Assembly (NCBI RefSeq): GCF_900090285.1
Contig: NZ_LT607754.1
Location: forward strand, 3,374,001 to 3,438,000
Source of the DNA: Micromonospora inositola
GTDB taxonomy: Bacteria; Actinomycetota; Actinomycetes; Mycobacteriales; Micromonosporaceae
Direction: 5' to 3'
DNA: 64,000 nucleotides
Below, one piece after another: positions 13,330-29,855 of the stretch (position 1 is the first letter of the stretch; each line of letters opens with the position of its first letter). A model generated the notes under the pieces. That model saw only the letters and a list, made by a program, of their open reading frames with translations. It made no database searches and was not told where the DNA came from. Both the position numbers and the translations under genes were made by a program.

Positions 13330-14443
13330 GACGACTCCCACGGCGACGCCGGCGCGGGCGGCGGACCTGCCGGCGCAGTCGCCGCCGGTGGACCCGGCCG
13401 AGACCGCCGCGGCGACCGCGAAGTCCGACGCGCCGGGCCGGCTCTCCTGGTGGCGGGGCGACGGCGGCGACGGCGCCAAGCGAAACCTGGGCCTGCTGGC
13501 GACCCTGGTGGTGCTCGTCGTCATCGGCATCCTCACCCGGCCCGACCTGTACGGGAACGCGAGCTGGGTGTGGGGCAACACCCTCACCATCCTCAAGCTG
13601 GCCTCGGTGGTCGGCGTGGTCACCGTCGGGATGACCTTCGTGATCATCGGCGGGGGCATCGACCTGTCGGTCGGCGCGATCGTCGCCCTGGCCGGCGTCT
13701 GGTGCACCACGCTCGCCACCCAGAGCTACGGCGCCGGCGGCATGATCTTCAGCGCGCTCACCGTCGGGCTCGCCGTCGGCGTGGTCAACGGCCTGCTCGT
13801 CTCGTACGGGCGGCTGGTGCCGTTCATCGCCACGCTGGCCATGATGGTCGCCGCCCGGGGGCTGGCCGCCGAGATCTCCGACAAGCAGACCCAGGTCTCC
13901 ACCAACAGCTTCATCAACGGCATCGCCAGCACCGACCTCTTCGGCATCCCGCTGCTGGTCTACATTCTCGCCGCGGTGGTGGCCGCCGGCTGGGTGCTGC
14001 TGAACCGGACCACCTTCGGCCGCCGCACCGTGGCGGTCGGCGGCAACCCGGAGGCCGCCCGACTGGCCGGCATCAACGTCCGGCGGCACACCGTGCTCCT
14101 CTACGCGCTCTCCGGCCTCTGCTGCGGCATCGCCGCGGTCATGCTGACCGCGCAGGCCACCTCCGCGCAGGCGGCGATGGCGAACCTCTACGAGCTGGAC
14201 GCGATCGCCGCCGCCATCATCGGCGGGACGCTGCTCAGCGGCGGGCGGGGCACCATCATCGGTTCCCTGCTCGGGGTGGTCATCTTCTCCACCATCACCA
14301 ACCTCTTCGCCATCAACGGCCTCTCCACCGAGGCCCAGAACATGGTCAAGGGCGGCATCATCGTCGCCGCCGTCCTGATCCAGCAGGTGCAGTTCCGCAG
14401 CCTCACCCAGTTCCTCGGCCGCAACCGGGCCACCACCACCTGA
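13322..14443 (+). CDS. Sugar ABC importer permease (RbsC type)
   Basis: A 373-residue permease with about nine or ten helices after a soluble N terminus of 50 residues rich in Ala and Pro. The family pattern is clear: GMTFVIIGGGIDLSVGAIVALAG near residues 104-126, the EAARLAGINVRR coupling loop near 243-254, and ELDAIAAAIIGGTLLSGGRGTIIGSLLGV near 290-318. ATG 13322 lacks a strong Shine-Dalgarno sequence and may rely on coupling through the linker frame. Substrate class: ribose, inositol or a related sugar. Confidence 0.93.
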   Translation: MSETTPTATPARAADLPAQSPPVDPAETAAATAKSDAPGRLSWWRGDGGDGAKRNLGLLATLVVLVVIGILTRPDLYGNASWVWGNTLTILKLASVVGVVTVGMTFVIIGGGIDLSVGAIVALAGVWCTTLATQSYGAGGMIFSALTVGLAVGVVNGLLVSYGRLVPFIATLAMMVAARGLAAEISDKQTQVSTNSFINGIASTDLFGIPLLVYILAAVVAAGWVLLNRTTFGRRTVAVGGNPEAARLAGINVRRHTVLLYALSGLCCGIAAVMLTAQATSAQAAMANLYELDAIAAAIIGGTLLSGGRGTIIGSLLGVVIFSTITNLFAINGLSTEAQNMVKGGIIVAAVLIQQVQFRSLTQFLGRNRATTT

Positions 14444-14459
14444 CCCACGAGACACCGGC

Positions 14460-14485
14460 GGCCACCTCGACAAGTGACGGTGGCC
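14460..14485 (+). promoter_or_regulatory. Intra-operon stem-loop before the binding-protein gene
   Basis: GGCCACC and GGTGGCC pair across 12 bases in the 91-base gap between permease and binding protein. Such stems often stabilise or separate mRNA segments so that the binding protein is made in excess. Confidence 0.45.
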
Positions 14486-14534
14486 GGGCACAGCACACCC
14501 ATTTTCACCCCACCACCTCATCCAGGAGGTCGTC

Positions 14535-15587
14535 ATGACCCAGCACAGTCGCGACCTGTCGCGCCGCCGGCTGCTGTTCGGCGGGGCCGCGCTCTCCGCC
14601 GGCGTCGTGCTCGCCGGCTGCACCAGCAACGAGGCGGCGCCGACCGCCGCCCAGACGAAGGATGCCGCGGCCGGCGGGAACGCCGACCCGGGCAAGAAGG
14701 TGACCATCGGCTTCTCCGCCCCGGCCGCCGACCACGGCTGGATCGCCGCCATCACCAACAACGCCAAGGCGCAGGCCGCGGCGTACTCCGACGTGGAGTT
14801 CAAGAGCGTGGAGGCCGGCGCCGACGCGGCGGCCCAGCGCGCGGCGCTCTCCACCCTGATCTCCCAGAAGCCGGACGTGATCGTGCTGCTGCCGCACGAC
14901 GGCAAGGAGCTCAACGCGTTCGGCCTGGAGGCGATGAAGGCCGGCATCCCGGTGGTCAACCTGGACCGGGCCTTCCCCGATGCGCGGGCCTACCGGCTCC
15001 AGATCAAGGGCGACAACTACGGCATGGGGGTGGCCGCCGCCACCTACGTCGTCGCGCAGCTCAAGGCCAAGGGGGTCAGCAACCCGGTGATCGGGGAGAT
15101 CCCCGGCATCGACTCGCTGGAGCTGACCCAGGAACGCTCCAAGGGCTTCGCCGACACCCTCGCCGCGAACGGTCTGAAGGTGGCCAACCGCCGCCCGGCC
15201 GAGTTCACCGCCGACTCCGGGCAGCAGGCCGCCACCGGGCTCTTCCAGGCGCTGCCGAAGATCGACGCGCTCTGGAACCACGACGACGACCAGGGTATCG
15301 GTGTGCTCGCCGCGGTCAACCAGGCCAACCGCAAGGAGTTCTTCATGGTTGGCGGCGCCGGCTCGAAGAAGGCGATGGAGGACATCCAGGCCGACAACAC
15401 GGTGCTCAAGGCCACCGTCACCTACAGCCCCTCGATGGCCTCCTCGGCCATCTCCCTGGCCCGCCTGATCGGGCAGGGGAAGGGGATGTCCGACCTGGTG
15501 GAACTCCAGGTTCCGAAGGAGATCGTGCTCGCCTCGGAGACGATCACCAAGGAGAACGCGGGCAACTACCTGAAGCTCGGGTTCTGA
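14535..15587 (+). CDS. Sugar-binding lipoprotein of the ABC importer
   Basis: A 350-residue periplasmic-binding-protein-like protein (RbsB/Peripla_BP_4 type). The N terminus has a twin-arginine-like SRRRLLFGG followed by a lipobox LAGC with Cys near residue 29, so it is probably exported folded and lipid-anchored outside the membrane. Binding-fold landmarks are [22 protein letters not shown] and [21 protein letters not shown] precedes the ATG. It should capture the sugar for the permease before it. Confidence 0.93.
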
Positions 15588-15607: not shown

Positions 15608-16819
15608 TTGTCCACTCACGACAGACACCTGCGGGTCGGCATGGTCGGCTACGCGTTCATGGGCGCGGCGCACTCCCAGGCGTGGCGCACCGTGAACCGG
15701 GTGTACGACCTGCCGGCGCGGGTCCGGATGTCGCTCATCTGCGGCCGCGACGAGTCGAAGGTGGCCGACGCCGCCGACCGACTCGGCTGGGACGGGCACA
15801 CCACGGACTGGCGGCGGCTGGTCGAGTCCGACGAGATCGACGTGGTCGACATCTGCACGCCGGGTGACAGCCACTGCGAGATCGCGATCGCCGCGCTGGC
15901 CGCCGGCAAGCACGTGCTCTGCGAGAAGCCGCTGGCCAACACCGTCGAGGAGGCCCGGCAGATGACGGCCGCCGCCGCCCGGGCCCGGGCCGACGGGGTA
16001 CGCGCCATGTGCGGGTTCAACTACCGCCGGGTGCCGGCGGTCGCCATGATGCGGCAGCTGGTCGCCGACGGACGGCTCGGCGTGATCCGGCACGTCCGGG
16101 CGGCGTACCTGCAGGACTGGATCGTGGACCCGCAGTTCCCGTTGGTCTGGCGGTTGCAGAGGGACAGGGCGGGCTCCGGCGCGCTCGGCGACATCGGCGC
16201 GCACATCATCGACCTCACCCAGTACGTGACCGGGCAGCGGATCGGCGGAGTCAGCGCGCTGACCGAGACCTTCGTCAAGGAGCGGCCGTTGCCGGCCGGG
16301 TCGAGCGGCCTGGCCGCCCACGCGGACGGCAACGGCCGGGCCACCGGCACGGTCACCGTCGACGACGCGGCGGTCTTCGTCGCCCGGCTCGACGGCGGCG
16401 CGCTGGCCACGTACGAGGCGAGCCGGTTCGCCACCGGCCGCAAGAACGCGCTCCGGGTGGAGATCAACGGCTCGCTCGGCACCGTGGTGTTCGACCTGGA
16501 ACGCCTCAACGAGCTGGAGTTCTACGACGCCACCCGGCCCGCCGCCGAGCAGGGCTTCACCCGGATCCTGGTGACCGAGGGCGAGCACCCGTACATGTCG
16601 GCCTGGTGGCCGCCCGGCCACATCATCGGCTACGAGCACTCCTTCACCCACCAGATGCGGGACTTCGTCGAGGCGGTCGCCACCGGCGTCGACCCGACCC
16701 CCTCCTTCGCCGACGCGTTGCAGGTCCAGCTCGTGCTGGACGCGGTGACCCGCTCGGCGGAGCTGGGCTCCTCCTGGACGGAGGTGGAGCCGGCCGTGGC
16801 GGCCGAACTGGCCGCCTGA
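15608..16819 (+). CDS. Gfo/Idh/MocA-family NAD(P)-dependent oxidoreductase
   Basis: A 403-residue dehydrogenase. The Rossmann start is [10 protein letters not shown] (residues 10-19), and the family motif EKPLAN carries the catalytic lysine of the EKP triad. A second-domain DIGAHIIDL supplies the usual Asp and His. The start is a TTG with GGGGGAG 8 bases upstream. The gene is 21 bases after the binding protein, so it is the last gene of the importer operon. Family members oxidise inositol, glucose derivatives or other cyclitols; it probably oxidises the imported sugar or its derivative. Confidence 0.92.
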
Positions 16820-17086: not shown

Positions 17087-18247
17087 ATGCGTACGGGTAT
17101 CTGGCTGATGGGGGCGCGCGGCTCGGTCGCGACCACCAGCATCGTCGGGGCGCTCGCCCTCCGGGCCGGGCTCACCGGCCCGACCGGCTGCGTCACCGAG
17201 CTGCCCGAGCTGCGGGGTCCGGCCCTGCCGGCCTTCGCCGATCTCGTCCTCGGCGGCCACGACGTGGTAGCGACCCCGCTGATCAAGCGGGCCGAGGCGC
17301 TGGCCACCGCCGGCGTGCTGCCCGGCCGGCTGGTCGACGCGCTCGCGGGGGAGCTGGCCGAGGTCGAGCGGGCGCTGCGCCCCGCCCCGGCCGGGGGCAC
17401 CCAGGCCGACCGGGCCGGCGCCGTCGAGCGGGACCTGACCGACTTCCGGGACCGGCACGGGCTGGACCGGGTGGTGGTGGTCAACGTCTGCGCCACCGAG
17501 CCGGCCGCCGTCCCGCACCCGGCGCACGCCGACCTCGTCGCCCTGCGGGCCGCGCTGGCCGGCCCCGACGAGGTGCTGCCGCCCAGCTCGCTGTACGCGT
17601 ACGCGGCCTTCACCGCCGGCTGCCCGTACGTCGACTTCACGCCGTCCACCGGGGCCCGGCTGCCGGCGCTGGCGGCGCTGGCCGCGGAGCGCGGCCTGCC
17701 GTACGCCGGGCACGACGGCAAGACCGGGGAGACGCTGGTCAAGTCGGTGCTCGCGCCGATGTTCGCGATGCGCCACCTGGCCGTCCGGTCCTGGTCGGGG
17801 GTGAACCTGCTGGGCGGCGGGGACGGCGCGAACCTGGCCGACCCGGCGGCGAACGCGGCCAAGGTGGCCAGCAAGCAGCGGGTGCTCGGCGAGACGCTCG
17901 GCTACGTCCCGCAGGGCGACACCCGGATCGACCACGTCGAGGAACTGGGCGACTTCAAGACCGCCTGGGACCTGGTCACCTTCGCCGGCTTCCTGGGCAC
18001 CGGGATGCGGATGGAGTTCACCTGGCACGGCTGCGACTCGGCGCTGGCCGCCCCGCTGGTGCTCGACCTGGCCCGGCTCACCGCCGCCGCGCACGCCGCC
18101 GGCCGGCGTGGCCCCCTCCGCGAGCTGGCCTTCTTCTTCAAAGACCCGCTCGACGCCCCGACCCACTCGCTCGCCGAGCAGTGGGCCCTGCTGCGCGACC
18201 TCGTCGCCGGCCTGCACCGGGGAGGCGCCGATGGCCAGCCTCGCTGA
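17087..18247 (+). CDS. Inositol-3-phosphate synthase-like cyclase of the ebo-type operon
   Basis: A 386-residue member of the myo-inositol-1(3)-phosphate synthase family, which turns glucose-6-phosphate into a cyclitol phosphate with transient NAD oxidation. The NAD site GARGSVATT is at residues 9-17. Other family blocks are NVCATEP, GHDGKTGETLVKS, SGVNLLGGGDG, ASKQRVLGE, and FKTAWDL...HGCDSALAAPLVLDL, which holds candidate catalytic Lys and Asp. GGAAGGAG lies 6 bases before the ATG. It opens a tightly packed operon and overlaps the UbiA gene by 17 bases. In classical ebo clusters I would expect the dehydroquinate-synthase-like EboD as the cyclase. The substrate may not be glucose-6-phosphate. 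Confidence 0.85.
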   Translation: MRTGIWLMGARGSVATTSIVGALALRAGLTGPTGCVTELPELRGPALPAFADLVLGGHDVVATPLIKRAEALATAGVLPGRLVDALAGELAEVERALRPAPAGGTQADRAGAVERDLTDFRDRHGLDRVVVVNVCATEPAAVPHPAHADLVALRAALAGPDEVLPPSSLYAYAAFTAGCPYVDFTPSTGARLPALAALAAERGLPYAGHDGKTGETLVKSVLAPMFAMRHLAVRSWSGVNLLGGGDGANLADPAANAAKVASKQRVLGETLGYVPQGDTRIDHVEELGDFKTAWDLVTFAGFLGTGMRMEFTWHGCDSALAAPLVLDLARLTAAAHAAGRRGPLRELAFFFKDPLDAPTHSLAEQWALLRDLVAGLHRGGADGQPR

Positions 18248-19151
18248 CCTCGCCGAACTGGTCCGGGCACCGGCCGCGCTCTCCGTACCCGGGGATGTGC
18301 TGGCGGGCGCGGCGGCGGCCGGCGTCCTGGACCGCCGGACGCCGGCGCTGGCCGGGGCGTCGGTGCTGCTCTACTGGGCCGGCATGGCGGCCAACGACTG
18401 GGCCGACCGCCGCCTGGACGCGGTGGAGCGGCCGGAGCGGCCGATTCCCTCCGGCCGAGTGAGCCCGCCGGCCGCGCTCGGGCTCGCCGCCGGCCTCACC
18501 GCCGCCGGGCTCGCCCTGGCCACCGCCGCCGGGGGCCGGCGGGCGGCGGCCGTCGCGGTGCCGCTCGCCACCACCATCTGGGGGTACGACCTGCTGGCCA
18601 AGAACACCGCGGCCGGCCCCGCCGTGATGGCCGCCTGCCGCGGCCTGGACGTGCTCCTCGGCGCCGCCTCCGCCGGGCCGGGCCGTGCTCCGGCCGCCGG
18701 CCGCGCCGGCGCCTCGGCGTCGCGTGGTTGCGGGTCACCGTCTGCGGGTAGGCGCCTGGCCAGGGCGCTGCCGGCGGCGCTGACCGTGGCCGCGCACACC
18801 TGGACGGTCACCGCGCTCTCCCGGCGCGAGGTCGGCGGGGCCGACCGGCGGCTGCCCCGGGCCACCCTCGCCGGCACGGCGCTGGTGGCGGCCACCGCCC
18901 TGGGCCGGGCCGACCCGGTCCCGGTCGCGCTCGCCGCCGGCTACGCCACCCGGTACGGCGCCGCCCAGGCCCGGGTGCTGGCCGACCCGTCGCCCGGTCG
19001 GGTCCGGACCGCCGTGACCGCCGGCATCACCGGCCTGCCCGCGTTGCAGGGCGCGCTGACCGCCCGGGCCGGCGCCCGACTGCTCGGCCTGGCCGTCGCG
19101 GCCGCCGCCCCGCTCGGCCGCCGCCTCGCCCGGTTGGTGTCGCCGACATGA
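18231..19151 (+). CDS. eboC: UbiA-type membrane prenyltransferase (EboC-like)
   Basis: A 306-residue membrane protein with about eight helices. Both prenyl-diphosphate motifs of UbiA enzymes are present: NDWADRRLD...RPERPIPSG at residues 55-75 and GYDLLAKNT...CRGLDVLLGA at 119-145. The CRGLD motif is characteristic of the EboC/SCO6762-like branch. It should move a polyprenyl chain onto an acceptor at the inner membrane face. GGGGAGG precedes the ATG and the gene overlaps the cyclase by 17 bases, so the acceptor may be the cyclase product. A basic stretch rich in Ala, Gly and Ser (about 146-172) between helices is unusual. Confidence 0.88.
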   Translation: MASLADLAELVRAPAALSVPGDVLAGAAAAGVLDRRTPALAGASVLLYWAGMAANDWADRRLDAVERPERPIPSGRVSPPAALGLAAGLTAAGLALATAAGGRRAAAVAVPLATTIWGYDLLAKNTAAGPAVMAACRGLDVLLGAASAGPGRAPAAGRAGASASRGCGSPSAGRRLARALPAALTVAAHTWTVTALSRREVGGADRRLPRATLAGTALVAATALGRADPVPVALAAGYATRYGAAQARVLADPSPGRVRTAVTAGITGLPALQGALTARAGARLLGLAVAAAAPLGRRLARLVSPT

Positions 19152-20068
19152 CCGGGCGGGCGGCATCGGGTGCGGCCGGGGCGGCCCACGCTCCGCTTCG
19201 CCCGACCGCGCTGCGGTTCGGCTACGGCACCAACGGGTTCGCCAACCACCGGCTGCTCGACGCGCTGGCGGTCATCGCCGACCTCGGCTACCAGGGGGTG
19301 GCGCTCACCCTGGACCACGACCACCTGGACCCGTTCGCGCCCGGGCTGGCCCGCCGGGTCGCCGCCGTGCACCGCCGGCTGGCCGCGCTCGGCCTGGCCA
19401 CGGTGGTCGAGACCGGGGCCCGCTACCTGCTCGACCCGTGGCACAAGCACGCGCCGACGCTGCTGCACGACGACCCGGCCCGGCGGGTCGACTTCCTGCG
19501 CCGGGCGGTACGGATCGGGGCTGACCTGGGCGCCGAGGCGGTCTCCTGCTGGGCCGGGGTACGCCCGCCGGCGGTGCCGGCCGCCGTCGCGTGGGACCGG
19601 CTGGTGGCCGGCTGCGCCACCGTCTGCGCCGAGGCGGCGGCGGCGGGTGTGCCGCTCGGCTTCGAGCCCGAGCCGGGAATGCTGGTCGAGGACATCGCCG
19701 GCTGGCGGCGGCTGCGGGCCGCGCTCGGCGCGCCACCCGGCTTCGGCATCACCCTCGACATCGGACACTGCCGCTGCCTGGAGCCGACACCGGTGCCGGA
19801 CTGCGTGGCGGCGGTCGCCGACCACCTGGTCAACGTGCAGATCGACGACATGCGCCGGGGCGTGCACGAGCACCTGGAGTTCGGCACCGGCGAGATCGAC
19901 TTCCCGCCGGTGCTACGCGCCCTCGCCGACGCCGGCTACCGCGGCCTGGTGGCGGTGGAACTGCCCCGGCACTCGCACGCCGCGCCGACCGTCGCCGCCG
20001 GCTCGATCGAGTTCCTGCACGCCGTCGCCCGGACGGCCGAGAAGGGCGGCGGCGCACCACGTACCTGA
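19148..20068 (+). CDS. Sugar-phosphate isomerase/epimerase-like TIM barrel in the ebo-type operon
   Basis: A 306-residue xylose-isomerase-like barrel. Metal-ligand candidates are the Glu in GFEPEPG, Asp and His in TLDIGH, the His residues near VHEHLEF and the Glu in VAVELPRHS, which is the usual Glu-Asp/His-Glu pattern. It starts on ATGA shared with the prenyltransferase. The EPEPG motif recurs in the EboE-like gene of the same operon (GFEPEPGCIVES), suggesting distant paralogy. It probably isomerises or dehydrates a sugar or cyclitol intermediate. Confidence 0.85.
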   Translation: MTGRAASGAAGAAHAPLRPTALRFGYGTNGFANHRLLDALAVIADLGYQGVALTLDHDHLDPFAPGLARRVAAVHRRLAALGLATVVETGARYLLDPWHKHAPTLLHDDPARRVDFLRRAVRIGADLGAEAVSCWAGVRPPAVPAAVAWDRLVAGCATVCAEAAAAGVPLGFEPEPGMLVEDIAGWRRLRAALGAPPGFGITLDIGHCRCLEPTPVPDCVAAVADHLVNVQIDDMRRGVHEHLEFGTGEIDFPPVLRALADAGYRGLVAVELPRHSHAAPTVAAGSIEFLHAVARTAEKGGGAPRT

Positions 20069-20081
20069 GAGGGGAGACGGC

Positions 20082-20705
20082 ATGACACCCGACCGACTGC
20101 GCGCCGCGCTGCGGGGCGTACCCGATCAACGGTGGCTGGACGCGGCGCTGCGCCGCGTCGCGACCGAACCCGCGGCGGTCGCCCGGCTCTTCCCCGCCGC
20201 CGCGCGGCGCTGCGGGCGGGGGCCGCTGCCCGACCCGCCCGGCTGGACCGTCGACGAGGCCGCCCGGGTGCTGCTGCTCACCGCCCTCCCCGCCGACCAC
20301 GCGGCGACGACGGCCGAGACCCTCTACCGGCACGGCGACGCGGCCGAGAAGCGGGCCGTGCTGCGGGCGCTGCCGCTGCTGCCGATCGGCGCGGCCTGCG
20401 TACCGCTGCTGCACGACGCCATCCGCACCAACGACACCCGGCTGGTCGCCGCCGCCCTCGGCCCGTACGCCCGGCACCTGGAGCAGGCGGCCTGGCGGCA
20501 GGCGGTGCTCAAGTGCGTCTTCACCGGCGTACCGCTGGCGGTCGTGGACGACCTCGGCGGCCGGGCCGACGGGGAGCTGGCGGCGATGCTGGCCGCGCTG
20601 GCCGCCGAGCGGCACGCGGCCGGCCGCACCATGCCCGCCGACGCCACCGACCTGCTCGACCGGCTCGGCGCCGGCTCGGACCTGACCACCGCCAGGGAGG
20701 CGTGA
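20082..20705 (+). CDS. eboA: EboA-domain protein
   Basis: A 207-residue, helix-rich soluble protein. The run LPLLPIGAACVPLLHDAIRTND and AALGPYARHLEQAAWRQAVLKCVFTGVPL are the conserved core of EboA as I know it. No catalytic motif is visible. GAGAGGGGAG precedes the ATG, and its stop overlaps the next start (TGATG). EboA has no established biochemical function; in other bacteria it always occurs with EboB-F, which is the main ground for the name here. Confidence 0.85.
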   Translation: MTPDRLRAALRGVPDQRWLDAALRRVATEPAAVARLFPAAARRCGRGPLPDPPGWTVDEAARVLLLTALPADHAATTAETLYRHGDAAEKRAVLRALPLLPIGAACVPLLHDAIRTNDTRLVAAALGPYARHLEQAAWRQAVLKCVFTGVPLAVVDDLGGRADGELAAMLAALAAERHAAGRTMPADATDLLDRLGAGSDLTTAREA

Positions 20706-21556
20706 TGCGCATCTTCGACCCGCACATCCACATGACCTCACGGACCACCGACGACTACGAGCGGATGGCCGCCGCCGGGGTGCGCGCGGTGGTGGAGCCG
20801 GCGTTCTGGCTGGGCCAGCCGCGCACCAGCGCCGCCACGTTCGTCGACTACTTCGACTCGCTGATCGGCTGGGAGCCGTTCCGGGCCGGGCAGTTCGGCG
20901 TCCGGCACCACGCCACCGTCGCGCTGAACCCCAAGGAGGCCAACGACCCGCGCTGTCACGCGGTGCTCGACCTGCTCCCGCGCTACCTGGACAAGGACGG
21001 CGTGGTGGCGGTCGGTGAGATCGGCTACGACTCGATGACCCCGGCCGAGGACGCCGCGTTCGCCGGCCAGCTCGCCCTGGCCGTCGCCCACGACCTGCCC
21101 GCCCTGGTGCACACCCCGCACCGGGACAAGGCGCGGGGCGTCGAGCGGAGCCTCGCGGTGGTCGCCGAGTCGGGCATCGAGCCCGGGCGGGTGCTGGTCG
21201 ACCACCTCAACGAGGTCACCGTGAAGCTGGTCCGGGACACCGGTTGCTGGCTGGGCTTCTCCATCTACCCGGACACCAAGATGACGCCGCCGCGGATGGT
21301 CGAGCTGCTGCGGACGTACGGGACCGAGCGGATGCTGGTCAACTCGGCGGCCGACTGGGGGCGCTCCGACCCGCTGCTCACCCGGGCCACCGGCGAGGCG
21401 ATGCTGCTCGCCGGCTTCACCGACGACGACGTCGACCGGGTGCTGTGGCGCAACCCGGTGGAGTTCTACGGGCAGTCCGGCCGGCTCGACCTCAGTGACC
21501 TGGACGCGCCCGCCCCCACCTTCGCCGGCAACTCCATCCTGCGCGGGGGCGAGTGA
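20705..21556 (+). CDS. eboB: TatD-family metal-dependent hydrolase (EboB-like)
   Basis: A 283-residue amidohydrolase-like barrel. The metal-binding start FDPHIHM gives D5, H7 and H9. VGEIGYD supplies the Glu, LVHTPHRDK the His, and VDHLNE and NSAADWG complete the set. It starts on the A of the eboA stop and its own stop overlaps eboE, so translation is chained. The substrate is unknown; in ebo clusters it would hydrolyse a pathway intermediate. Confidence 0.9.
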   Translation: MRIFDPHIHMTSRTTDDYERMAAAGVRAVVEPAFWLGQPRTSAATFVDYFDSLIGWEPFRAGQFGVRHHATVALNPKEANDPRCHAVLDLLPRYLDKDGVVAVGEIGYDSMTPAEDAAFAGQLALAVAHDLPALVHTPHRDKARGVERSLAVVAESGIEPGRVLVDHLNEVTVKLVRDTGCWLGFSIYPDTKMTPPRMVELLRTYGTERMLVNSAADWGRSDPLLTRATGEAMLLAGFTDDDVDRVLWRNPVEFYGQSGRLDLSDLDAPAPTFAGNSILRGGE

Positions 21557-22749
21557 TGCGGCTCCGGCACGCCGACGGCAGCACCGTCCACCTCGGCTAC
21601 TGCACGAACGTCCATCCGGCGGAGGACCTGACCGGCATCCTCGGCCAGCTCGACCGCTACGCCGTGCCGGTCCGCCGAGCCCTCGACGCCGACCTGCTCG
21701 GCCTCGGGCTCTGGCTGGCCGCCCCGGTCGCCGCCGAGCTGGCCGCCGACCCTGCGCTGCGCCGGCGGCTGCGGGCCGAGCTGACCGTACGCGGGCTGGA
21801 GGTGGTCACCCTCAACGGCTTCCCGTACGCGTCGTTCCAGGCGCCCGTGGTCAAGGGCGCCGTCTACCACCCGGACTGGACCACCGGCGACCGGCTGGCG
21901 TACACCCTGCACCTGGCCCGGGTACTGGCCGACCTGCTCCCCGACGACGCGGCCCGGGGCTCGGTCTCCACCCTGCCGCTGGCCTGGCGGGAGCCGTGGG
22001 ACGCCGACCGCGCGGCGGCGGCCCGGCGGCGGCTCGGGGAACTGGCCACCGGGCTCTCCGCGGTCGAGCGGGAGACCGGCCGGCCGATCCGGGTCGGCTT
22101 CGAACCGGAACCGGGGTGCATTGTGGAGTCCACGGGACAGGCGGGCGCGGTATTGTCAGCCATGGATACCGGCCGGCTCGGGGTCTGCCTCGACCTGGCG
22201 CACCTGGCGTGCGCCTGGGAGGAGCCGGTCGAGGCGCTGGCCCGGCTGGAGTCGGCCGGGCTGCCGGTGGTCAAGGTGCAGGTCTCCGCCGCCGTCGAGG
22301 CCGCCGACCCGGGCGACTCGGCCGAGACGCTGCGCCGCTGGGTCGAGCCCCGCTTCCTGCACCAGACCCGGGCCGCCGGCTGCGCCTCCGCCGCCGACCC
22401 GGCCGACCCGGCGTACGCGGCCGACGACCTGGACGCCGCCCTCGACGCGCGGCTGCCCGGGCCGTGGCGGGTGCACTACCACGTGCCGCTGCACGCGCCG
22501 CCCGAGCCGCCGCTGACCTCCACCCTGCCGGTGCTGCGGGCCGCCCTCGCCGGGCTGTTCGCCGGGCCGACCGCCGGCTGCGACCACCTCGACGTCGAGA
22601 CGTACACCTGGGGGGTGCTGCCGGCGGCGCGGCGGCCGCGCACCGACGCGGAGCTGGCCGCCGGGATCGCTGCCGAGTTGGCCTTCGCCCGCGACGAGCT
22701 GGTCGCCGTCGGCCTCGCCGCCCCGGCCGGAACGGGGGTGGGGCGGTGA
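21556..22749 (+). CDS. eboE: EboE: TIM-barrel metabolite-traffic protein
   Basis: A 397-residue xylose-isomerase-like barrel. The hallmark YCTNVHPAEDL (residues 15-25) and LNGFPYASFQAPVVKGAVYHPDWT are typical of EboE. Likely metal or catalytic residues are in GFEPEPG, CLDLAHLA, QVSAAVE and DVETYTW. ATG 21556 follows a GTG at 21553 that is equally usable; both overlap the eboB stop. Its own stop overlaps the eboF GTG. Annotated elsewhere as a metabolite traffic protein; the reaction is unknown. Confidence 0.9.
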   Translation: MRLRHADGSTVHLGYCTNVHPAEDLTGILGQLDRYAVPVRRALDADLLGLGLWLAAPVAAELAADPALRRRLRAELTVRGLEVVTLNGFPYASFQAPVVKGAVYHPDWTTGDRLAYTLHLARVLADLLPDDAARGSVSTLPLAWREPWDADRAAAARRRLGELATGLSAVERETGRPIRVGFEPEPGCIVESTGQAGAVLSAMDTGRLGVCLDLAHLACAWEEPVEALARLESAGLPVVKVQVSAAVEAADPGDSAETLRRWVEPRFLHQTRAAGCASAADPADPAYAADDLDAALDARLPGPWRVHYHVPLHAPPEPPLTSTLPVLRAALAGLFAGPTAGCDHLDVETYTWGVLPAARRPRTDAELAAGIAAELAFARDELVAVGLAAPAGTGVGR

Positions 22750-24140
22750 GCAAGCGGCTGGTGGTGCTGGACGTGGTCGGGCTGACCCCGCGCCTGCTGG
22801 CGCACATGCCCCGGCTGCGCGCGGTGGCCGAGGCCGGCTTCGCCGCCGAGCTGGGCACCGTGCTGCCCGCCGTCACCTGCTCGGTCCAGTCCACCTTCCT
22901 CACCGGCGAGCCGCCCTCCGGGCACGGGATCGTCGGCAACGGCTGGTACTTCCGGGACCTCGGCGAGGTGCTGCTATGGCGGCAGCACCACGCGCTGGTC
23001 GGCGGGGAGAAGCTCTGGCAGGCGGCCCGCCGGGTCGAGCCCGGGTACACGGTGGCGAACGTCTGCTGGTGGTATGCGATGGGCGCCGACGTGGACTGGA
23101 CGGTCACCCCCCGCCCGGTCTACCACGCCGACGGCCGCAAGGAGCCGGACTGCTGGACCGACCCGCCGGAGCTGCACGACGTGCTCACCGACGCGCTCGG
23201 CACCTTCCCGCTCTTCACCTACTGGGGGCCGGGGGCAGGGCTGCCCTCGTCCCGGTGGATCTGCCGGGCCGCCGAGCGGATCCTGGCCGACCAGGCGCCC
23301 GACCTGACCCTGGTCTACGTGCCGCACCTGGACTACGACCTGCAACGCTTCGGCCCGAACTCGCCGCGCGCCGCCGCGGCGGCGGCCGAGCTGGACGCGG
23401 TGCTCGCCCCGCTGCTGGACGCCGCCCGGGCGAGGGACGCCACGGTGGTGGCGCTGTCGGAGTACGGCATCACCGACGTCTCCCGGCCGGTGGACGTCAA
23501 CCGGCTGCTGCGCGCCGAGGGACTGCTGCGGGTCTACACCCAGGCCGGCATGGAGTACCTCGACCCGTGGACGTCCCGGGCCTTCGCGGTCGCCGACCAC
23601 CAGGTGGCGCACGTCTACGTCCGGGACCCGGCCGACGTGCCTGCGGTGGCGAAGCTCTGCGCCGGGCTGCCCGGGGTGGCCGAGGTGCTCGACGCCGACG
23701 GCCAGGCCGGGTACGCGCTGGACCACGCCCGCTCCGGCGAGCTGGTGCTGGTGGCCGAGCCGGACGCCTGGTTCACCTACTACTACTGGCTCGACGACGC
23801 CCGCGCACCCGACTTCGCCCGGCTGGTCGAGATCCACCGCAAGCCCGGGTACGACCCCGCCGAGCTCTTCTTCGACCCGGCCGCCCCGGGCGCGGCGAAG
23901 CGCCGGGCCGGGGTCGCGCTGGCCCGCAAGAAGCTCGGCATGCGCTACCTGATGAGCGTGGTCGGGCTGGACGCCGGCGCCCGGGCGGTCCGCGGCTCGC
24001 ACGGCCGGCTGTCCGCCGACCCGGCGGACGGGCCGGTGCTGCTCTGCTCGGACCCGTCCTCCGCCCGGGACCGGCTGGCCGCGACCGACGTGAAGGCGCT
24101 GCTGCTCCAGCTCGCCGGACTGGCCCGGGAGGCGCCATGA
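22746..24140 (+). CDS. eboF: EboF: alkaline-phosphatase-superfamily phosphodiesterase/pyrophosphatase
   Basis: A 464-residue protein of the type I phosphodiesterase/nucleotide pyrophosphatase family. Metal and nucleophile candidates: D in VVLDVVGLT, T in PAVTCSVQST (nucleophile position), D/H in YVPHLDYDLQRFG, E in SEYGIT and H in VADHQVAHV. No signal peptide is visible, so it should be cytoplasmic, unlike most phosphatases of this fold. GTG start overlapping eboE (GTGA). It probably removes a phosphate or cleaves a phosphodiester from a pathway intermediate. Confidence 0.9.
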   Translation: MSKRLVVLDVVGLTPRLLAHMPRLRAVAEAGFAAELGTVLPAVTCSVQSTFLTGEPPSGHGIVGNGWYFRDLGEVLLWRQHHALVGGEKLWQAARRVEPGYTVANVCWWYAMGADVDWTVTPRPVYHADGRKEPDCWTDPPELHDVLTDALGTFPLFTYWGPGAGLPSSRWICRAAERILADQAPDLTLVYVPHLDYDLQRFGPNSPRAAAAAAELDAVLAPLLDAARARDATVVALSEYGITDVSRPVDVNRLLRAEGLLRVYTQAGMEYLDPWTSRAFAVADHQVAHVYVRDPADVPAVAKLCAGLPGVAEVLDADGQAGYALDHARSGELVLVAEPDAWFTYYYWLDDARAPDFARLVEIHRKPGYDPAELFFDPAAPGAAKRRAGVALARKKLGMRYLMSVVGLDAGARAVRGSHGRLSADPADGPVLLCSDPSSARDRLAATDVKALLLQLAGLAREAP

Positions 24141-25204
24141 CCATGACCGTCGTACCGACCGACCCGACCCTGCTGCGGGCGCGCTTCGACGCGGAACTCG
24201 CGGCGTTCCTGCACCAGCAGGGGCCGGGCCGGTCGGACGGCGTTCCGGGGGCCGTTCACGCCGTCCTGCACCGGTTCGTCCTGGCCGGAGGCAAGCGGCT
24301 GCGGCCCCTGTTCTGCTACTGGGGTTGGCGGGGCTTCGGCGGCCCGGACGCGCCACCCATCGTGGGCGCGGCGGCGGCGCTGGAGCTGTTCCACGCCTTC
24401 GCGCTGATCCACGACGACATTCTGGACGGCAGCGACCGCCGGCGCGGCCAGCCCACGGTGCACCGGCACTTCGCCGACCTGCACGCCCGGTCGTCCGGGC
24501 GGGGCGACCCCGAGGCGTACGGGCGGCACGCCGCCCTGCTCTGCGGGAACCTCTGCGTCGCCTGGTCGCAGGAGATGTTCCACGGCTGCGGGCTGGGCGC
24601 CGAGCAGCTCCGCCGGGGGTATGCGGTCTTCGCGCTGATGCGCGCCGAGGTGATCGCGGGGGAGTACCTGGACCTGGTCTCGGCCGTCGGGGACGGCTCG
24701 GTGGCGACCGCGTTGACCGTGATCCGGATGAAGACCGCCCGGTACACGGTGACCCGGCCGCTGCAGATCGGCGCGGCTCTGGCCGGCGCGGATCCGGCCG
24801 CGGTGGCCGCCCTCGCGGAGTTCGGCGACCCACTGGGGGACGCCTTCCAGCTCCGCGACGACCTGCTCGGGGTCTTCGGCGACCCGGCGGTCACCGGCAA
24901 GTCCACGGTGGACGACCTGCGTGAGGGCAAGCCCACGGTGCTGATGGCGTTGGCGCGGGTTGCCGCCGACCGGGCCGGGTCGGCACGGCTGCGGGCCCTC
25001 TTCGGTAATCCGGCGCTGGACGCGGCGGGCGCGGCCGAGCTGCGCGAGCTCATCGAGGACTCCGGGGCCCGGGAGCAGGTGGAGCGGATGATCCGGGTAC
25101 GCGCGAAGCAGGCGCGGGCCGCGCTGGACCGGCAGTCGCTGGCGGAGCCGGCGCGGTCGGCGCTCGCGGACCTGGCGGCCCGCGCGGTGTACCGCCGGCA
25201 CTGA
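24137..25204 (+). CDS. Polyprenyl diphosphate synthase of the ebo-type operon
   Basis: A 355-residue all-trans isoprenyl diphosphate synthase. The first Asp-rich motif is DDILD (93-97). The second is DDLLG (241-245) followed by VFGD, a form common in actinobacterial geranylgeranyl/farnesyl synthases. GGKRLRP near 51-57 binds isopentenyl diphosphate. It starts on ATGA shared with eboF, so it belongs to the operon and most simply supplies the chain to the UbiA enzyme. Chain length cannot be settled by eye; Phe88 lies five residues before the first motif, which favours short chains (C15-C20). Confidence 0.92.
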   Translation: MTMTVVPTDPTLLRARFDAELAAFLHQQGPGRSDGVPGAVHAVLHRFVLAGGKRLRPLFCYWGWRGFGGPDAPPIVGAAAALELFHAFALIHDDILDGSDRRRGQPTVHRHFADLHARSSGRGDPEAYGRHAALLCGNLCVAWSQEMFHGCGLGAEQLRRGYAVFALMRAEVIAGEYLDLVSAVGDGSVATALTVIRMKTARYTVTRPLQIGAALAGADPAAVAALAEFGDPLGDAFQLRDDLLGVFGDPAVTGKSTVDDLREGKPTVLMALARVAADRAGSARLRALFGNPALDAAGAAELRELIEDSGAREQVERMIRVRAKQARAALDRQSLAEPARSALADLAARAVYRRH

Positions 25205-25293: not shown

Positions 25294-25306
25294 TACCTTG
25301 GGCCGC
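25294..25306 (+). promoter_or_regulatory. Putative leaderless promoter of the decayed histidine kinase
   Basis: TACCTT (25294-25299) ends 7 bases before ATG 25307, with no Shine-Dalgarno sequence. The geometry matches the other leaderless candidates in this window. Confidence 0.4.
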
Positions 25307-25879
25307 ATGGGACGCCTCGCGCAGTGGCGCCGGATCGTCCGGGCGCACCCGACGCTCGCCGACGCGCTGCTGGCCGCGGTGCTGTTCCTGCTCGGCGCGG
25401 CGGCGGTGCTCACCCTCGACGTGCCGTGGCTGGACGCGGCCGTCGTGGTGCTGCTGCTCTGGTTCGGCGCCGCGGTCGCCCTGAGCAGGACCGACGCGCC
25501 CACCGAGCCGGCGCCCAGCCTCAACCGGCTCGACGCCCTGGTGGAGGGGCTCGGCACCGGGCGGCCGGTGCGCTGGACCGTCGCCGGGCAGCCCCGGCCG
25601 CTGCCCGGCGCCGTCGACGTGGCGGCGTACCGGATCATCGAGGAGTCCCTGACCAACGCGCAGAAGCACGCCGCGGGCGCGGCCGTCGCGGTCCGCCTGC
25701 GCTACGACCCCGAGGGCGTCACCATCGAGGTACGCGACGACGGCCCGCCCCGCCCGGAGGCGGTCGGCATGCGCGAGCGGGCCGAGACCGTCGGCGGCGC
25801 CTTCTCCGCCGGGCCGCGTCCGGGTGGCGGCTGGCTGGTGCGGGCCGAACTGCCCGCCCCCGAGGAGGAGGCCGAATGA
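25307..25879 (+). pseudogene. Sensor histidine kinase with its phosphoacceptor region deleted
   Basis: The reading frame is intact (190 residues) but the gene looks internally deleted. Two N-terminal helices (about 20-60) run almost directly into a C-terminal GHKL ATPase domain with N box [20 protein letters not shown] and [11 protein letters not shown]. NarL-type kinases have a DHp domain with the phosphorylated His between these parts (a RELHD-type motif); none is here. The next frame is a truncated response regulator. I read the pair as the relic of a two-component system; a retained ATP-binding role is possible but less likely. Confidence 0.7.
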
Positions 25880-26099: not shown

Positions 26100-27110
26100 A
26101 TGGCGCGACCCATCACGCTCTTCACCGGCCAGTGGGCCGACCTTCCGTTCGACGAGGTCTGCCGGCTCGCCGCCGAGTGGGGTTACGACGGCCTGGAGAT
26201 CGCCTGCTGGGGCGACCACTTCGAGGTCGACAAGGCCCTCGCCGACGAGTCGTACGTCGACCGGAAGCTGACCACCCTCGCCAAGCACAACCTGCAGGTC
26301 TTCGCCATCTCCAACCATCTGGTCGGGCAGGCGGTCTGCGACCACCCGATCGACGAGCGGCACCAGGACATCCTGCCGGCGCGGATCTGGGGCGACGGCG
26401 AGCCCGAGGGGGTACGCCGGCGCGCCGCCGAGGAGATCAAGGACACCGCCCGCGCGGCGGCGAAGCTGGGCGTCAAGACGGTGGTCGGCTTCACCGGCTC
26501 GTCGATCTGGCACACCCTGGCGATGTTCCCGCCGGTGCCCCCGGCCATGATCGAACGCGGCTACCAGGACTTCGCCGACCGGTGGAACCCGATCCTCGAC
26601 GTCTTCGACGAGGTGGGGGTCCGCTTCGCCCACGAGGTGCACCCCAGCGAGATCGCGTACGACTACTGGACCACCAAGCGGGCCCTGGAGGCGATCGGCC
26701 ACCGCCCGGCGTTCGGGTTGAACTGGGATCCGTCGCACTTCGTCTGGCAGGAGCTGGACCCGGTCAACTTCATCTTCGACTTCGCCGACCGGATCTACCA
26801 CGTCGACTGCAAGGACGCGAAGGTCCGTACCGGCGACGGCCGGCGCGGCCGGCTCTCCTCCCACCTGCCCTGGGCGGACCTGCGCCGCGGCTGGGACTTC
26901 GTCTCCACCGGCCACGGGGACGTGCCCTGGGAGGACTGCTTCCGGGCGTTGAACGCCATCGGGTACACCGGCCCGATCTCGATCGAGTGGGAGGACGCCG
27001 GCATGGACCGGCTGGTCGGCGCGCCGGAGGCGCTCCAGTTCGTCCGCCGGCTCGCCTTCGACGCCCCGGCGGCCGCCTTCGACGCCGCCTTCAGCAGCAA
27101 CCGGGACTGA
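26100..27110 (+). CDS. Sugar phosphate isomerase/epimerase (xylose-isomerase-like TIM barrel)
   Basis: A 336-residue barrel. Candidate metal ligands: E in [15 protein letters not shown] and H in [12 protein letters not shown] in [10 protein letters not shown] and E in SIEWEDAG. No signal peptide. GGGGAGAAGGA lies just before the ATG. A hairpin separates it from the ebo operon, so it may have its own transcript. Close relatives often neighbour Gfo/Idh dehydrogenases and ThuA proteins in pathways that oxidise glycosides to 3-keto sugars, and both kinds occur in this window. Confidence 0.9.
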
Positions 27111-27484: not shown

Positions 27485-28669
27485 TCAGCGGGCCGCGAAG
27501 ACGTGGTCGCTGATCAGGCGGGCCGCGCCGACCAGGGCGGCCCGCTCGTCCAGATCGGACAGGACGATCGGCATGCTGCCGGTGGCGAGCGGCGTCGAGC
27601 GCCGGTAGACCACCCCGCGGATCTCGGCGAGCAGCACGGGCCCGATGCCGGGGGCGGCCCCGCCGATGATCACGATGGCCGGGTTGAAGAAGCTGACCAG
27701 GCCGACCAGCACCTGCCCCAGCCGGCGGGCGCCGTCCCGGACCAGGGTCTGCGCGGTCGGGTCCCCGGCCGTCGCCGCCCGCGCGACGTCGGCCGCGGTG
27801 AGCGTACCGGCCTCCGCCACCCGGTCGGCGAGCGCCGCCGACCGGCTGCCGTGCGCGGCGGCGAGCGCCTCCCGGACCAGGGCGCCGTCCCCGCAGTACG
27901 CCTCCAGGCAGCCGGTGTTGCCGCAGTCGCAGAGCGGGCCGTCGTCGGTCAGCCGCAGGTGCCCGATGTCGCCGGCCCCGCTGGTAGCGCCCCGATAGAG
28001 CGCGCCGCCCAGCACCAGACCGCACCCGATGGCGCTGCCGAGCTTGACGTAGAGGAAGTCGTCGAACGCCCGGCCGGTGCCGGCGTGCAGCTCACCCAGC
28101 GCCATCACGTTGGCGTCGTTGTCCACCTGCACCGGGCAGCCCAGCTCGGCGGCGATCGCGTCGCGGACCGGGAACTGGTGCCAGCCCGGCAGGGCGGGCG
28201 AGGACACCGCGGCTCCCTCCGGAACCGCGACCGGCGCGGGCAGGGCCACGCCCACCCCGGTCAACCGGGACAGCCCCACCTCGGCGCGGAGCTTGCCGAG
28301 CAGTTCGACGGCGCGGCCGACGAGCGCCTCCGGCCCGCCCCGGACGTCGACCGGCTCGCCGAGGCGGGCGAGCACGGCCAGCTCGCCGTCGGTCAGCGCG
28401 ACGTCGAGCCGCCCGGCGCTGACGGCCACCGCGCCGAAGCGGACCTGCCCGGCGACGCGGAGCAGGGATGAGCGGCGCCCGCCCCGGGACGCGGCCGGCC
28501 CGGCCGTCTCCACCAGGCCCTGGCTGGTCAGCCGGTCCACCTCCGCGATGAACCGGGCCCGGTTGAGTCCCAGGGCGTCGGCCAGCTCGACCCGCGAGCG
28601 GGCGCCGTCGTCGCGCAGCCGGCGCAGCAGCCGCGCCTGGTCCGGGTTTTCCGGCCCGATCAACGTCAT
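27485..28669 (-). CDS. Second ROK-family transcriptional regulator
   Basis: A 394-residue ROK repressor paralogous to the one at 10.4 kb: N-terminal winged helix (LLRRLRDDGARSRVELADALGLNRARF), LTGVGVALPAP, DNDAN, and a zinc motif GHLRLTDDGP then CDCGNTGC. I chose ATG 28669 because GGAGG lies 8 bases upstream; earlier ATGs at 28684 and 28699 are in frame. The two ROK proteins share tails such as LAEIRGVVYRRS, so they are probably duplicates with different sugars. It lies downstream of, and on the same strand as, the secreted sugar-oxidising protein and its companion, separated by a strong terminator. Confidence 0.92.
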   Translation of the reverse strand: MTLIGPENPDQARLLRRLRDDGARSRVELADALGLNRARFIAEVDRLTSQGLVETAGPAASRGGRRSSLLRVAGQVRFGAVAVSAGRLDVALTDGELAVLARLGEPVDVRGGPEALVGRAVELLGKLRAEVGLSRLTGVGVALPAPVAVPEGAAVSSPALPGWHQFPVRDAIAAELGCPVQVDNDANVMALGELHAGTGRAFDDFLYVKLGSAIGCGLVLGGALYRGATSGAGDIGHLRLTDDGPLCDCGNTGCLEAYCGDGALVREALAAAHGSRSAALADRVAEAGTLTAADVARAATAGDPTAQTLVRDGARRLGQVLVGLVSFFNPAIVIIGGAAPGIGPVLLAEIRGVVYRRSTPLATGSMPIVLSDLDERAALVGAARLISDHVFAAR

Positions 28670-28705
28670 CGCGATCACCTCCATCGGCGAATCTTCCACA
28701 CCACC

Positions 28706-28781: not shown

Positions 28782-29855
28782 TCAGCCCCGCAGACCCGAC
28801 ATGTGCTGGTAGCTGACCTCCGCGTAGCGCAGCGACCGGCCCGGGTCGGCGGCGCCGCCCGGCGCGTTGTCCTGCTCCCACATCGGGTTGTGGTAGCCCT
28901 TCGCGCCCATGTTGGCGAAGAAGGTGCCGTAGTCGATGTCGCCCTGGCCGAGCGGCACCATGTCGTAGCCGGCAGAGTTGGCCGGGTTGAACGCGCCGTC
29001 CTTGGCGTGGAACAGCGGGAAGCGCGTGGTCCGGGTCGCCACCGTGGCCAGCGGGTCGAAGACGTTCGTCTGCGTCACACCGTCCGGGTCCACGTAGCTG
29101 CGGTACCGGTACTGCGCCACGTGCGCCCAGTAGATGTCCATCTCGAACCAGACCCACTCCGGGTTGGTCAGCCCGAAGAAGTACTCCAGCTTCCGCACCC
29201 CGGAGGACCGGGTCGGCCGGCCCAGTCCGTCCAGCGGGCCGCTGTCCAGCAGGAAGTTGTACGCCGCGTCGTGGTTGTGCGTGTAGAGCTTCAGCCCCCG
29301 GGCGGCGGCCATCTCACCGAAGGTGTTCCACCGGTCGGCGGCGGCGTCCCAGTCGGCCTTGTAGTTGCTGCCGGTCGGGTCGTTGCCGGTGCCGATGTGC
29401 GTCATGCCGAGGATCTCGGCCGTGTCCAGCGTCTGCTCGAAGGCGGCGATGGTGTCCGGGGTGACGGCGCTCGGGACCGAGGCGTGCGAGCCGTTCGCCC
29501 GCAGGCCGTTGTCGTCCAGGATCTTGCGGATCTCCGCCGGGGTGATCTGCCGGCCGAGGATCGAGGTGTGCTGGGTGTAGCCGGCGAACTCGACCTCCTT
29601 GTAGCCGATCTCGGCGACTCGGCCGAGCACCCGCTCGAAGCCGTACGGCACGCCGGAGGTGTCCGGTGCGGCGCCGATCCGGTCGCGGACGCTGTAGAGG
29701 ATGATGCCGCGCTTGCCGGTGGGGACGAGCAGGCCGTTGCCCTCGGCGGCGGCCGACGGGGCCCAGCCGGCGGCGCCGACGGCGACCGCGCCGGCGGCGC
29801 CGGCGACGGTGCCGAGCATCCGGCGACGGCTCATTCCGTGCTGTGTGTCGTTCAT
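28782..29855 (-). CDS. Twin-arginine-exported xylose-isomerase-like TIM barrel protein
   Basis: A 357-residue secreted barrel. The signal peptide has MSRRRMLGTVAGAAGAVAVGAAGW and an Ala-rich cleavage site near residue 37 (APSAAAEG), so it is probably exported folded. The barrel has YKEVEFAGY, HIGTGNDP, YTHNHDAAY (His and Asp ligands), WFEMDIYWAH and FPLFHAKDGAF, the usual metal-site pattern. It follows the ThuA/dehydrogenase gene on the same strand by 95 bases and shares its terminator. Together they may oxidise and isomerise or cleave an extracellular sugar. Confidence 0.92.
   Translation of the reverse strand: MNDTQHGMSRRRMLGTVAGAAGAVAVGAAGWAPSAAAEGNGLLVPTGKRGIILYSVRDRIGAAPDTSGVPYGFERVLGRVAEIGYKEVEFAGYTQHTSILGRQITPAEIRKILDDNGLRANGSHASVPSAVTPDTIAAFEQTLDTAEILGMTHIGTGNDPTGSNYKADWDAAADRWNTFGEMAAARGLKLYTHNHDAAYNFLLDSGPLDGLGRPTRSSGVRKLEYFFGLTNPEWVWFEMDIYWAHVAQYRYRSYVDPDGVTQTNVFDPLATVATRTTRFPLFHAKDGAFNPANSAGYDMVPLGQGDIDYGTFFANMGAKGYHNPMWEQDNAPGGAADPGRSLRYAEVSYQHMSGLRG

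Follow-up and report, generated by a model that had tools for sequence, protein, structure and literature searches.

The window analysed here is a stretch of 64,000 nucleotides from Micromonospora inositola (assembly GCF_900090285.1, contig NZ_LT607754.1, positions 3,374,001 to 3,438,000), part of a single-contig genome of 6,707,994 bases, and at window positions 17087–25204 it carries a variant of the ebo operon that is both genuine and widespread. In this variant an Ino1-like (myo-inositol-phosphate-synthase-like) cyclase that is unrelated to EboD, together with a companion TIM-barrel protein called TIM2 in the following, appears to stand in for EboD. What ebo operons produce has been unsettled ever since they received their name in 2016. 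The openly available part of the naming paper places EboD in the sugar-phosphate-cyclase family, proposes an isoprenoid-cyclitol for ordinary ebo and describes operons lacking eboD or eboA (PMC5133447). The accessible sections of a second paper report that Nostoc punctiforme ebo mutants accumulate scytonemin monomer, conclude that ebo serves its export, report a role in the traffic or maturation of a metabolite in the periplasm, and recount the work on the Pseudomonas EDB operon (PMC6282210). The exchange of the cyclase for an inositol-phosphate-synthase-like enzyme supports a cyclitol as building block, offers inositol as a labellable precursor, makes the product searchable and extends the pathway to the genetically tractable Streptomyces. 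As far as the open literature shows, the cyclase swap, the archaeal spread and the neighbourhood of 3-keto-sugar-type oxidation genes are new: no description of an Ino1-type ebo cluster was found in the open-licence part of PubMed Central, and the word 'inositol' is absent from the main text of PMC5133447, PMC6282210 and PMC9235831 to the extent that this text is openly available. Database records name the parts separately and unlinked, as metabolite traffic protein EboE, EboA domain protein, inositol-3-phosphate synthase and SCO3242 family prenyltransferase.

Gene content of the operon

All eight genes lie on the + strand, each frame has an in-frame start and stop codon, and the junctions in gene order measure −17, −4, +13, −1, −4, −4 and −4 bases. 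The tight junctions described in an earlier note on this DNA, overlapping or 13 bases apart, are thus confirmed as six overlaps and a single 13-base gap; a promoter and terminator scan found nothing. The first gene (17087–18247, 386 residues) encodes the Ino1-like cyclase in the place of EboD and contains both Pfam domains of myo-inositol-1-phosphate synthases (PF07994 168/25, PF01658 100.5/27; profile results are given as bits/curated cut-off in bits). It is followed by a UbiA-family prenyltransferase of the SCO3242/EboC type (18231–19151, 306 residues; PF01040 65.2/34.2, SCO3242 family NF045897 358.7/260), by TIM2, a xylose-isomerase-like TIM barrel of the sugar isomerase/epimerase type (19148–20068, 306 residues; PF01261 125.7/31.1), by EboA, all-helical (20082–20705, 207 residues; EboA domain NF035938 161.8/50), by the TatD-like metal-dependent hydrolase EboB (20705–21556, 283 residues; PF01026 40.5/27), by the TIM-barrel protein EboE (21553–22749, 398 residues; NF035939 399.1/250) and by EboF, a member of the alkaline-phosphatase superfamily with partly changed metal-ligand positions (22746–24140, 464 residues; PF01663 211.4/23). 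The last gene encodes an accessory polyprenyl, perhaps geranylgeranyl, diphosphate synthase (24137–25204, 355 residues; PF00348 158/27, DDILD motif).

The operon resembles ordinary ebo operons, including Pseudomonas EDB, in encoding EboA, EboB, an EboC-type protein, EboE and EboF together, and it differs in that EboD is absent and the Ino1-like cyclase plus an additional TIM barrel take its place. Since EboA (by its domain model), EboB, EboE and EboF are present and EboD is missing, the locus was filed as a variant and not as an ordinary member. The earlier note had named EboA, EboE and EboF: the EboA domain and EboE models matched, no EboF-specific model is among the profile results for the window proteins, and EboF was recognised by PF01663 and homology. 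The TatD-like and phosphodiesterase genes are called EboB and EboF on account of homology to their counterparts in other ebo clusters. The full-length EboA family model stays below its cut-off (83.9/320), as does the EboC equivalog model NF035940; by profile the prenyltransferase belongs to the same UbiA branch as the UbiA-297/EboC enzymes but scores 120.5/250 on EboC versus 358.7/260 on SCO3242. The other genes of the Streptomyces coelicolor operon to which SCO3242 belongs are presumably SCO3237–SCO3241. According to the accessible text of two papers, the range of the CDA antibiotic cluster (SCO3210–SCO3249) includes SCO3242 and SCO3243, the latter bearing the name 'Myo-inositol phosphate synthase' (PMC3610822), and SCO3243 also appears in PMC3897704.

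Conservation and distribution

The order Ino1-like gene, EboC, TIM2, EboA, EboB, EboE, EboF, not counting the synthase, was found in 132 of 172 loci and spans Micromonosporaceae, Streptomycetaceae, Streptosporangiaceae and several deeper families of the Actinomycetota. The claim that this is an ebo cluster of variant type, built with an Ino1-like cyclase, holds, its conservation reaching far beyond one genome, and neither of the two refuting outcomes named beforehand, profiles giving no match or a gene set not conserved elsewhere, occurred. The set of 172 excludes loci L139, L142 and L143, in which the Ino1-like gene has other surroundings, and the EboD-type loci L208–L214 collected later. L052–L131 were collected via the cyclase, so that the linkage seen from the EboE side rests on L033–L051, L132–L136 and L148–L207, the last being 60 places chosen among the Streptomyces matches listed, partly for double copies.

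Among 396 Actinomycetota genomes drawn, 19 contain EboE. The 20 EboE loci, window included, comprise 17 with an Ino1-like gene, one with EboD (L037), one with a broken EboE (L051) and a Streptomyces copy without cyclase (L034), whose genome has a complete copy elsewhere (L036). Further draws gave EboE in 6/299 genomes of the class of genome G381 and 6/66 of the class of G051; the five loci opened from the former draw are two of the Ino1 type (L135, L136), one of the EboD type (L132), one cut by a contig end (L134) and a lone distant EboE (L133). Seen from the cyclase, 71 of 80 named loci continue into the remaining ebo genes, and in the other nine the contig stops just behind the cyclase or EboC. 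At E ≤ 1e-40, EboE occurs in 201 of 295 Streptomyces genomes, 194 of which also have the Ino1-like gene, whereas seven have EboE only, seven the cyclase only and 87 neither (Fisher p 3e-57, which is not a count of independent events as the genomes are related). One of the seven EboE-only genomes has cyclase pieces at a contig end (G938), one a short piece (G734) and five no match. Within one Streptomyces cluster, L175, EboA-EboB-EboE is duplicated in tandem.

Outside the actinobacteria, 12 plasmid records with an Ino1-like match were among the matches listed, and seven were opened. Plasmids of the haloarchaea Halobaculum, Halocatena and Natronococcus carry TatD-TIM-UbiA-TIM together with Ino1-EboF. 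These clusters are like the window in their Ino1-like (43–46%), EboB (43–48%), UbiA, EboF and TIM-barrel homologues, and differ in that the searches found no EboA or separate EboE, that there are two TIM2-like genes and that in 2/3 the genes form two divergent transcription units. Gemmatirosa has EboE, EboB, EboF, EboC, the Ino1-like gene and TIM2. In Halomarina, Hymenobacter and Roseomonas the cyclase has different surroundings: in Hymenobacter (L142, 9001–15540) and Roseomonas (L143, 9001–16308) no ebo match was found, and Ino1-like (35–38%) and TIM2-like (49–51%) genes stand with YcaO-like, Gfo/Idh/MocA and PIG-L genes, which may represent a different pathway of Ino1 and TIM barrel.

An Ino1-like cyclase in the place of EboD

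The nearest solved relative of the cyclase is the myo-inositol-1-phosphate synthase Ino1 of PDB entry 1u1i (240.8 bits, E 2.5e-70), which we take to come from Archaeoglobus fulgidus. All three residues altered in 3qw2, 3qvw and 3qvx are retained in an alignment to 1u1i, and N240, D246, K259, K263, K291, D317 and K352 are at least 93% conserved across 21 aligned Ino1-like proteins; the Asn and Lys residues among them are presumably catalytic. The window gene thus keeps the active-site residues of 1u1i and differs in being tied to a prenyltransferase. Its closest relatives among the 120 matches listed come, where named, from Micromonospora or close kin. The housekeeping INO1 of mycothiol synthesis was rejected as an identity (TIGR03450 only 30.8/638; the genome has two other Ino1-type matches). 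Could the specificity of the enzyme have shifted, say to a five-membered cyclitol phosphate or a different sugar phosphate, and would the product then not be an inositol? A member of the wider Ino1 superfamily, 6k96, makes a five-membered cyclitol phosphate, and the two other Ino1-type matches in the genome are consistent with such a shift. Against this, the match to 6k96 (40.7 bits) is far weaker than that to 1u1i, for which reason the five-membered-cyclitol synthase was rejected as an identity, and the active-site residues follow 1u1i; we consider a changed specificity distinctly unlikely.

The Ino1-like gene is found in 147 of the 172 loci and EboD in five. No locus contains both, no EboD match being found in the 147 examined loci with an Ino1-like gene, and for this reason the Ino1-like gene together with TIM2 appears to replace EboD. 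In the plasmid collection 48 records match EboE, 44 the Ino1-like gene and 16 EboD, and the 16 EboD records do not overlap with the 40 of the 44 Ino1-like records that were among the matches listed. A true EboD-like gene (52% identity) occurs in one of the 295 Streptomyces genomes, G951, a fragmented and possibly contaminated assembly that also has an Ino1-like gene, whereas EboE gave no match there at the cut-off. The remaining EboD matches listed for Streptomyces, with about 30–39% identity, look like a housekeeping relative or other cyclases. The EboD-type clusters, L037 and L132 from the same phylum and L144–L146 from Azospirillum, Ketogulonicigenium and Deinococcus, have homologous EboB, EboC, EboE and EboF, the window EboB being 57% identical to that of L144 and 50% to that of L145. 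They differ by the presence of EboD, no Ino1-like or TIM2 gene being found in them, and L037, L132 and L146 have no EboA match. L037 ends with a look-alike of type 2 isopentenyl-diphosphate isomerase (12722–13762, by eye), a further link to isoprenoids.

Sixteen Streptomyces ebo copies have no cyclase gene in the stretch read (L034, L149, L151–L156, L158, L161, L162, L164, L166, L168, L170, L171). Upstream of several of them lie genes for a flavin-dependent (FAD-dependent) oxidoreductase and an inositol-monophosphatase-family protein, recognised by Pfam for L034 and by eye for the others. A second sugar-phosphate cyclase as substitute in cyclase-less Streptomyces was considered and found weak: four of four such genomes have two matches, but so do many others (at least two in 81 of the 290 Streptomyces genomes with any match, counted by eye), and no such match lies beside EboE in the three cyclase-less genomes with an EboE place among the matches listed.

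What could the operon make?

By sequence, gene identity, the conserved order, the absence of a two-cyclase locus among those examined and the retained Ino1 active site can be regarded as firm. Beyond this, we see an even chance that the operon makes inositol phosphate or a close relative, which would be modified by TIM2 and prenylated to yield a prenyl-cyclitol lipid for a step in the cell envelope. A prenylated cyclitol, as the earlier note had it, is still the most economical reading and was already proposed for ordinary ebo in the open part of the naming paper (PMC5133447).

To go by family and active site, the Ino1-like enzyme would convert glucose 6-phosphate to myo-inositol phosphate or a close relative. 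Fold and gene linkage suggest that TIM2 would then epimerise or isomerise the cyclitol. The predicted structure of TIM2 is of moderate confidence (mean predicted local distance difference test score, pLDDT, 77.4), its best Foldseek match is the 3-epimerase UlaE (3cqj, E 4.8e-14), and other 3-epimerases also matched. Of the positions typical of the family, Glu, Asp and Glu are retained, the one usually occupied by His is Gln, His or Ala, and all four we take to be ligands. In the third step the EboC-type prenyltransferase would join the cyclitol to a prenyl diphosphate. The residues N55, D56, D59 and D63 of its NDxxDxxxD motif are at least 93% conserved in 29 aligned EboC sequences, and weak profile relatives of the window protein include enzymes for geranylgeranylglycerol phosphate (55.1/296). 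The donor in Micromonospora is perhaps a C20 compound from the operon's own synthase, in which a Phe stands five residues ahead of the DDILD motif, an arrangement that fits a C20 enzyme. The synthase, which the earlier note had counted as part of the cluster, is indeed part of it in the window. It follows EboF immediately in 58/172 loci, all 58 of them in Micromonosporaceae, and is also found near L033, L050, L115 and L121; since the direct adjacency is limited to Micromonosporaceae, it was rejected as a core gene.

EboB, EboE and EboF would complete the product or put it to use, and EboA would act as a helical scaffold. The EboA model is confident and all-helical (mean pLDDT 92.5) and has no PDB match at E ≤ 0.001, the best weak ones being mostly designed or HEAT-like helical repeats, which fits a scaffold role. 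The nearest solved relative of EboB, and the sole one at the threshold used, is 3guw (AF_1765, E 2.9e-25), an uncharacterised TatD-like protein presumably from the same archaeon as the closest Ino1 structure. EboE and TIM2 look like old paralogues, as they have a common E-P-E-P-like motif. An alignment of EboF to phosphonoacetate hydrolase shows Gln or Leu at one of the His positions for metal binding and Glu-Tyr in place of an Asp-His pair, in each of the 27 sequences, window included. The first Asp is present in the window and altogether in 15/17 Ino1-type sequences (window counted) and in 0/10 EboD-type ones. These positions presumably bind the metals, and the full ligand set of an active phosphodiesterase/nucleotide pyrophosphatase is not present in EboF. 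The changes make a plain hydrolase role doubtful, and the suggestion of the earlier note that the product is then hydrolysed, which rests on EboF, is accordingly weak. The finished prenyl-cyclitol lipid would serve an extracytoplasmic step, for example metabolite traffic or oxidation.

Do cyclase and prenyltransferase belong together? On trees of 24 to 29 sequences the cyclase type has to change once for EboC, twice for EboE, twice for EboF and three times for EboB. EboB, EboE and EboF of Gemmatirosa group with the EboD-type clusters and its EboC with the Ino1-type, a mosaic that hints at what might be expected if the prenyltransferase must match the cyclitol. A clean claim that the two genes moved as one unit was given up, as the trees are suggestive and approximately unbiased (AU) tests mostly do not reject alternatives. 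NCBI EboC model scores of 178–197 bits for haloarchaeal EboC and of 80–98 bits for four EboD-type EboC tested also indicate that the EboC split is not simple.

Several observations weigh against a prenyl-cyclitol made by a cyclase that replaces EboD. 1) The chemistry of the enzymes and the product are inferred from sequence. 2) In four near-complete Streptomyces genomes (G698, G750, G827, G932) EboE is present and an Ino1-like match at E ≤ 1e-6 is absent, and TIM2 stands without an Ino1-like gene in 18 loci (L134 among these being cut by a contig end), which indicates that a cyclase at this position is not an absolute requirement. 3) The pair of Ino1-like and TIM2-like genes is also found without ebo genes. 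4) The genome of the window has two other, weaker Ino1-type matches, and the retention of a separate copy is unexplained. 5) The AU tests, run on a smaller set with five EboD-type clusters, fail to reject alternatives for EboC (p 0.146), EboE (0.216) and EboB (0.335) and are marginal for EboF (0.045), and the evidence tying EboC to the cyclase depends largely on a single mosaic genome. 6) The changed ligands of EboF leave its role unsettled. 7) The assayed EboC-type enzyme, according to the open part of its report, farnesylates aromatic quinolines and not cyclitols (PMC9235831).

The last point leads to a different proposal, with the cyclitol as no more than an intermediate. In this scheme TIM2 and EboE would act as inosose/dehydroshikimate-type dehydratases, the ring would be aromatised and the UbiA enzyme would prenylate it, giving a prenylated quinol as redox carrier of the envelope. 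In addition to the quinoline activity (PMC9235831, same sections), TIM2 and two TIM barrels encoded downstream of the operon, TIM3 and a protein with a Tat-like N-terminus, give weak scores of 22, 43 and 21, respectively, of 290 bits on the inosose dehydratase IolE, and sugar dehydrogenases of the glucose/sorbosone dehydrogenase (GSDH) type lie beside many copies of the operon, a pyrroloquinoline quinone (PQQ) dehydrogenase beside a Salipiger EboD-type cluster. However, the conserved seven genes include no dehydrogenase for the ketone that dehydration needs, the neighbouring Gfo/Idh/MocA gene is not universal, and the best fold matches of TIM2 are 3-epimerases, not dehydratases. We therefore consider the aromatic route unlikely.

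Genomic neighbourhood

Compared with the earlier note, the picture of the operon is refined in that the cyclase, to go by gene content, is in EboD's place, brings its own TIM2 and often adjoins sugar-oxidation genes. The neighbouring genes give a testable hint at the purpose of the product. Their counts take any match of at least 70 bits, so that some are not orthologues; the ABC ATPases matched in Catellatospora, with an identity of about 25%, are an instance. Upstream on the + strand (11576–15587) lies an ABC sugar importer with ATPase (11576–13255, PF00005), permease (13322–14443, PF02653) and binding protein (14535–15587, PF13407); in 77 Micromonosporaceae loci the binding protein is matched in 67 and the permease in 65. 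The adjacent Gfo/Idh/MocA dehydrogenase (15641–16819, +; PF01408, PF22725) is levoglucosan/scyllo-inositol dehydrogenase-like (levoglucosan dehydrogenase model 354.6/650; PDB 4h3v 541 bits, scyllo-inositol dehydrogenase 5ya8 199 bits) and matched in 67/77 Micromonosporaceae loci. Downstream, a short histidine-kinase-ATPase-like frame directly follows the operon (25298–25879; PF02518 34.2/26.4, other kinase domains unmatched). TIM3 (26100–27110, +) is a relative of SCO6571 (2zds, 599 bits) and of 2-hydroxy-3-keto-glucal hydratase (8ro4, 155 bits) and is matched in 32 of 54 Streptomycetaceae loci with cyclase. Three genes on the − strand follow, for a ROK-family regulator (27485–28699; PF00480 154.7/22.9; 63/77 Micromonosporaceae loci), for the TIM barrel with twin-arginine-like N-terminus (RRR; 28782–29855; PF01261 72.5/31.1; 41/54 Streptomycetaceae loci with cyclase) and for a probably secreted protein of ThuA, GSDH, PKD and CBM6 domains (29951–33286; PF06283, PF07995, PF18911, PF03422).

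This ThuA-GSDH protein is found near cyclase loci in 42/54 cases in Streptomycetaceae, 54/77 in Micromonosporaceae, 5/9 in other Actinomycetota and 1/3 in haloarchaea, and in 0/17 Streptomycetaceae loci without cyclase, 0/3 Streptosporangiales, 0/1 Gemmatirosa and 0/5 EboD-type loci. For Streptomycetaceae with versus without cyclase Fisher p is 5e-9, many of these loci sharing descent.

Such neighbours could also mean that the operon is part of the breakdown of a sugar-like compound of the levoglucosan or 3-keto-glycoside type, with the Ino1-like and UbiA genes serving a side task. The resemblance to levoglucosan/scyllo-inositol dehydrogenases, 2-hydroxy-3-keto-glucal hydratase, ThuA and a sugar ABC importer, seen in several lineages, speaks for breakdown. 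But the seven genes also occur without such neighbours, for example close to nonribosomal peptide synthetase (NRPS) motifs, found within about 10 kb in 5/172 loci scanned (L035, L157, L163, L177, L181), or in a ScyD/ScyE setting in Streptomyces camelliae, and a catabolic operon would have no need of a polyprenyl synthase or of a prenyltransferase; breakdown is in our view quite improbable.

Extending the prenyl-cyclitol proposal, it could be imagined that the ebo pathway makes a new class of prenyl-cyclitol membrane lipids common to bacteria and haloarchaea, via either of two unrelated cyclases, and that these lipids are the acceptor, the anchor or the substrate carrier for secreted oxidoreductases of the beta-propeller kind, namely ThuA-glucose/sorbosone dehydrogenases, PQQ dehydrogenases and ScyD/ScyE. 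We regard this generalisation as rather unlikely; if true, a single mechanism with a shared lipid would link the maturation of scytonemin, the oxidation of sugars outside the cell and some antibiotic clusters.

Two further neighbourhoods were noted. In Salipiger one EboD-type cluster, L211, adjoins the PQQ dehydrogenase, whereas the second, L212, does not within the stretch read. A plasmid of Streptomyces camelliae (L147, 8224–20450) carries an NHL-repeat protein of the ScyD/ScyE family, an Ino1-type ebo operon, an Orf2-type aromatic prenyltransferase, a methyltransferase and a multicopper oxidase, and looks like a cluster for a prenylated aromatic compound with oxidation outside the cell. PLSDB also lists the 2Fe-2S protein gene at 20472–20795 of this locus as tet(W/32/O) with 100% identity, a resistance call that the gene's length and product suggest to be spurious.

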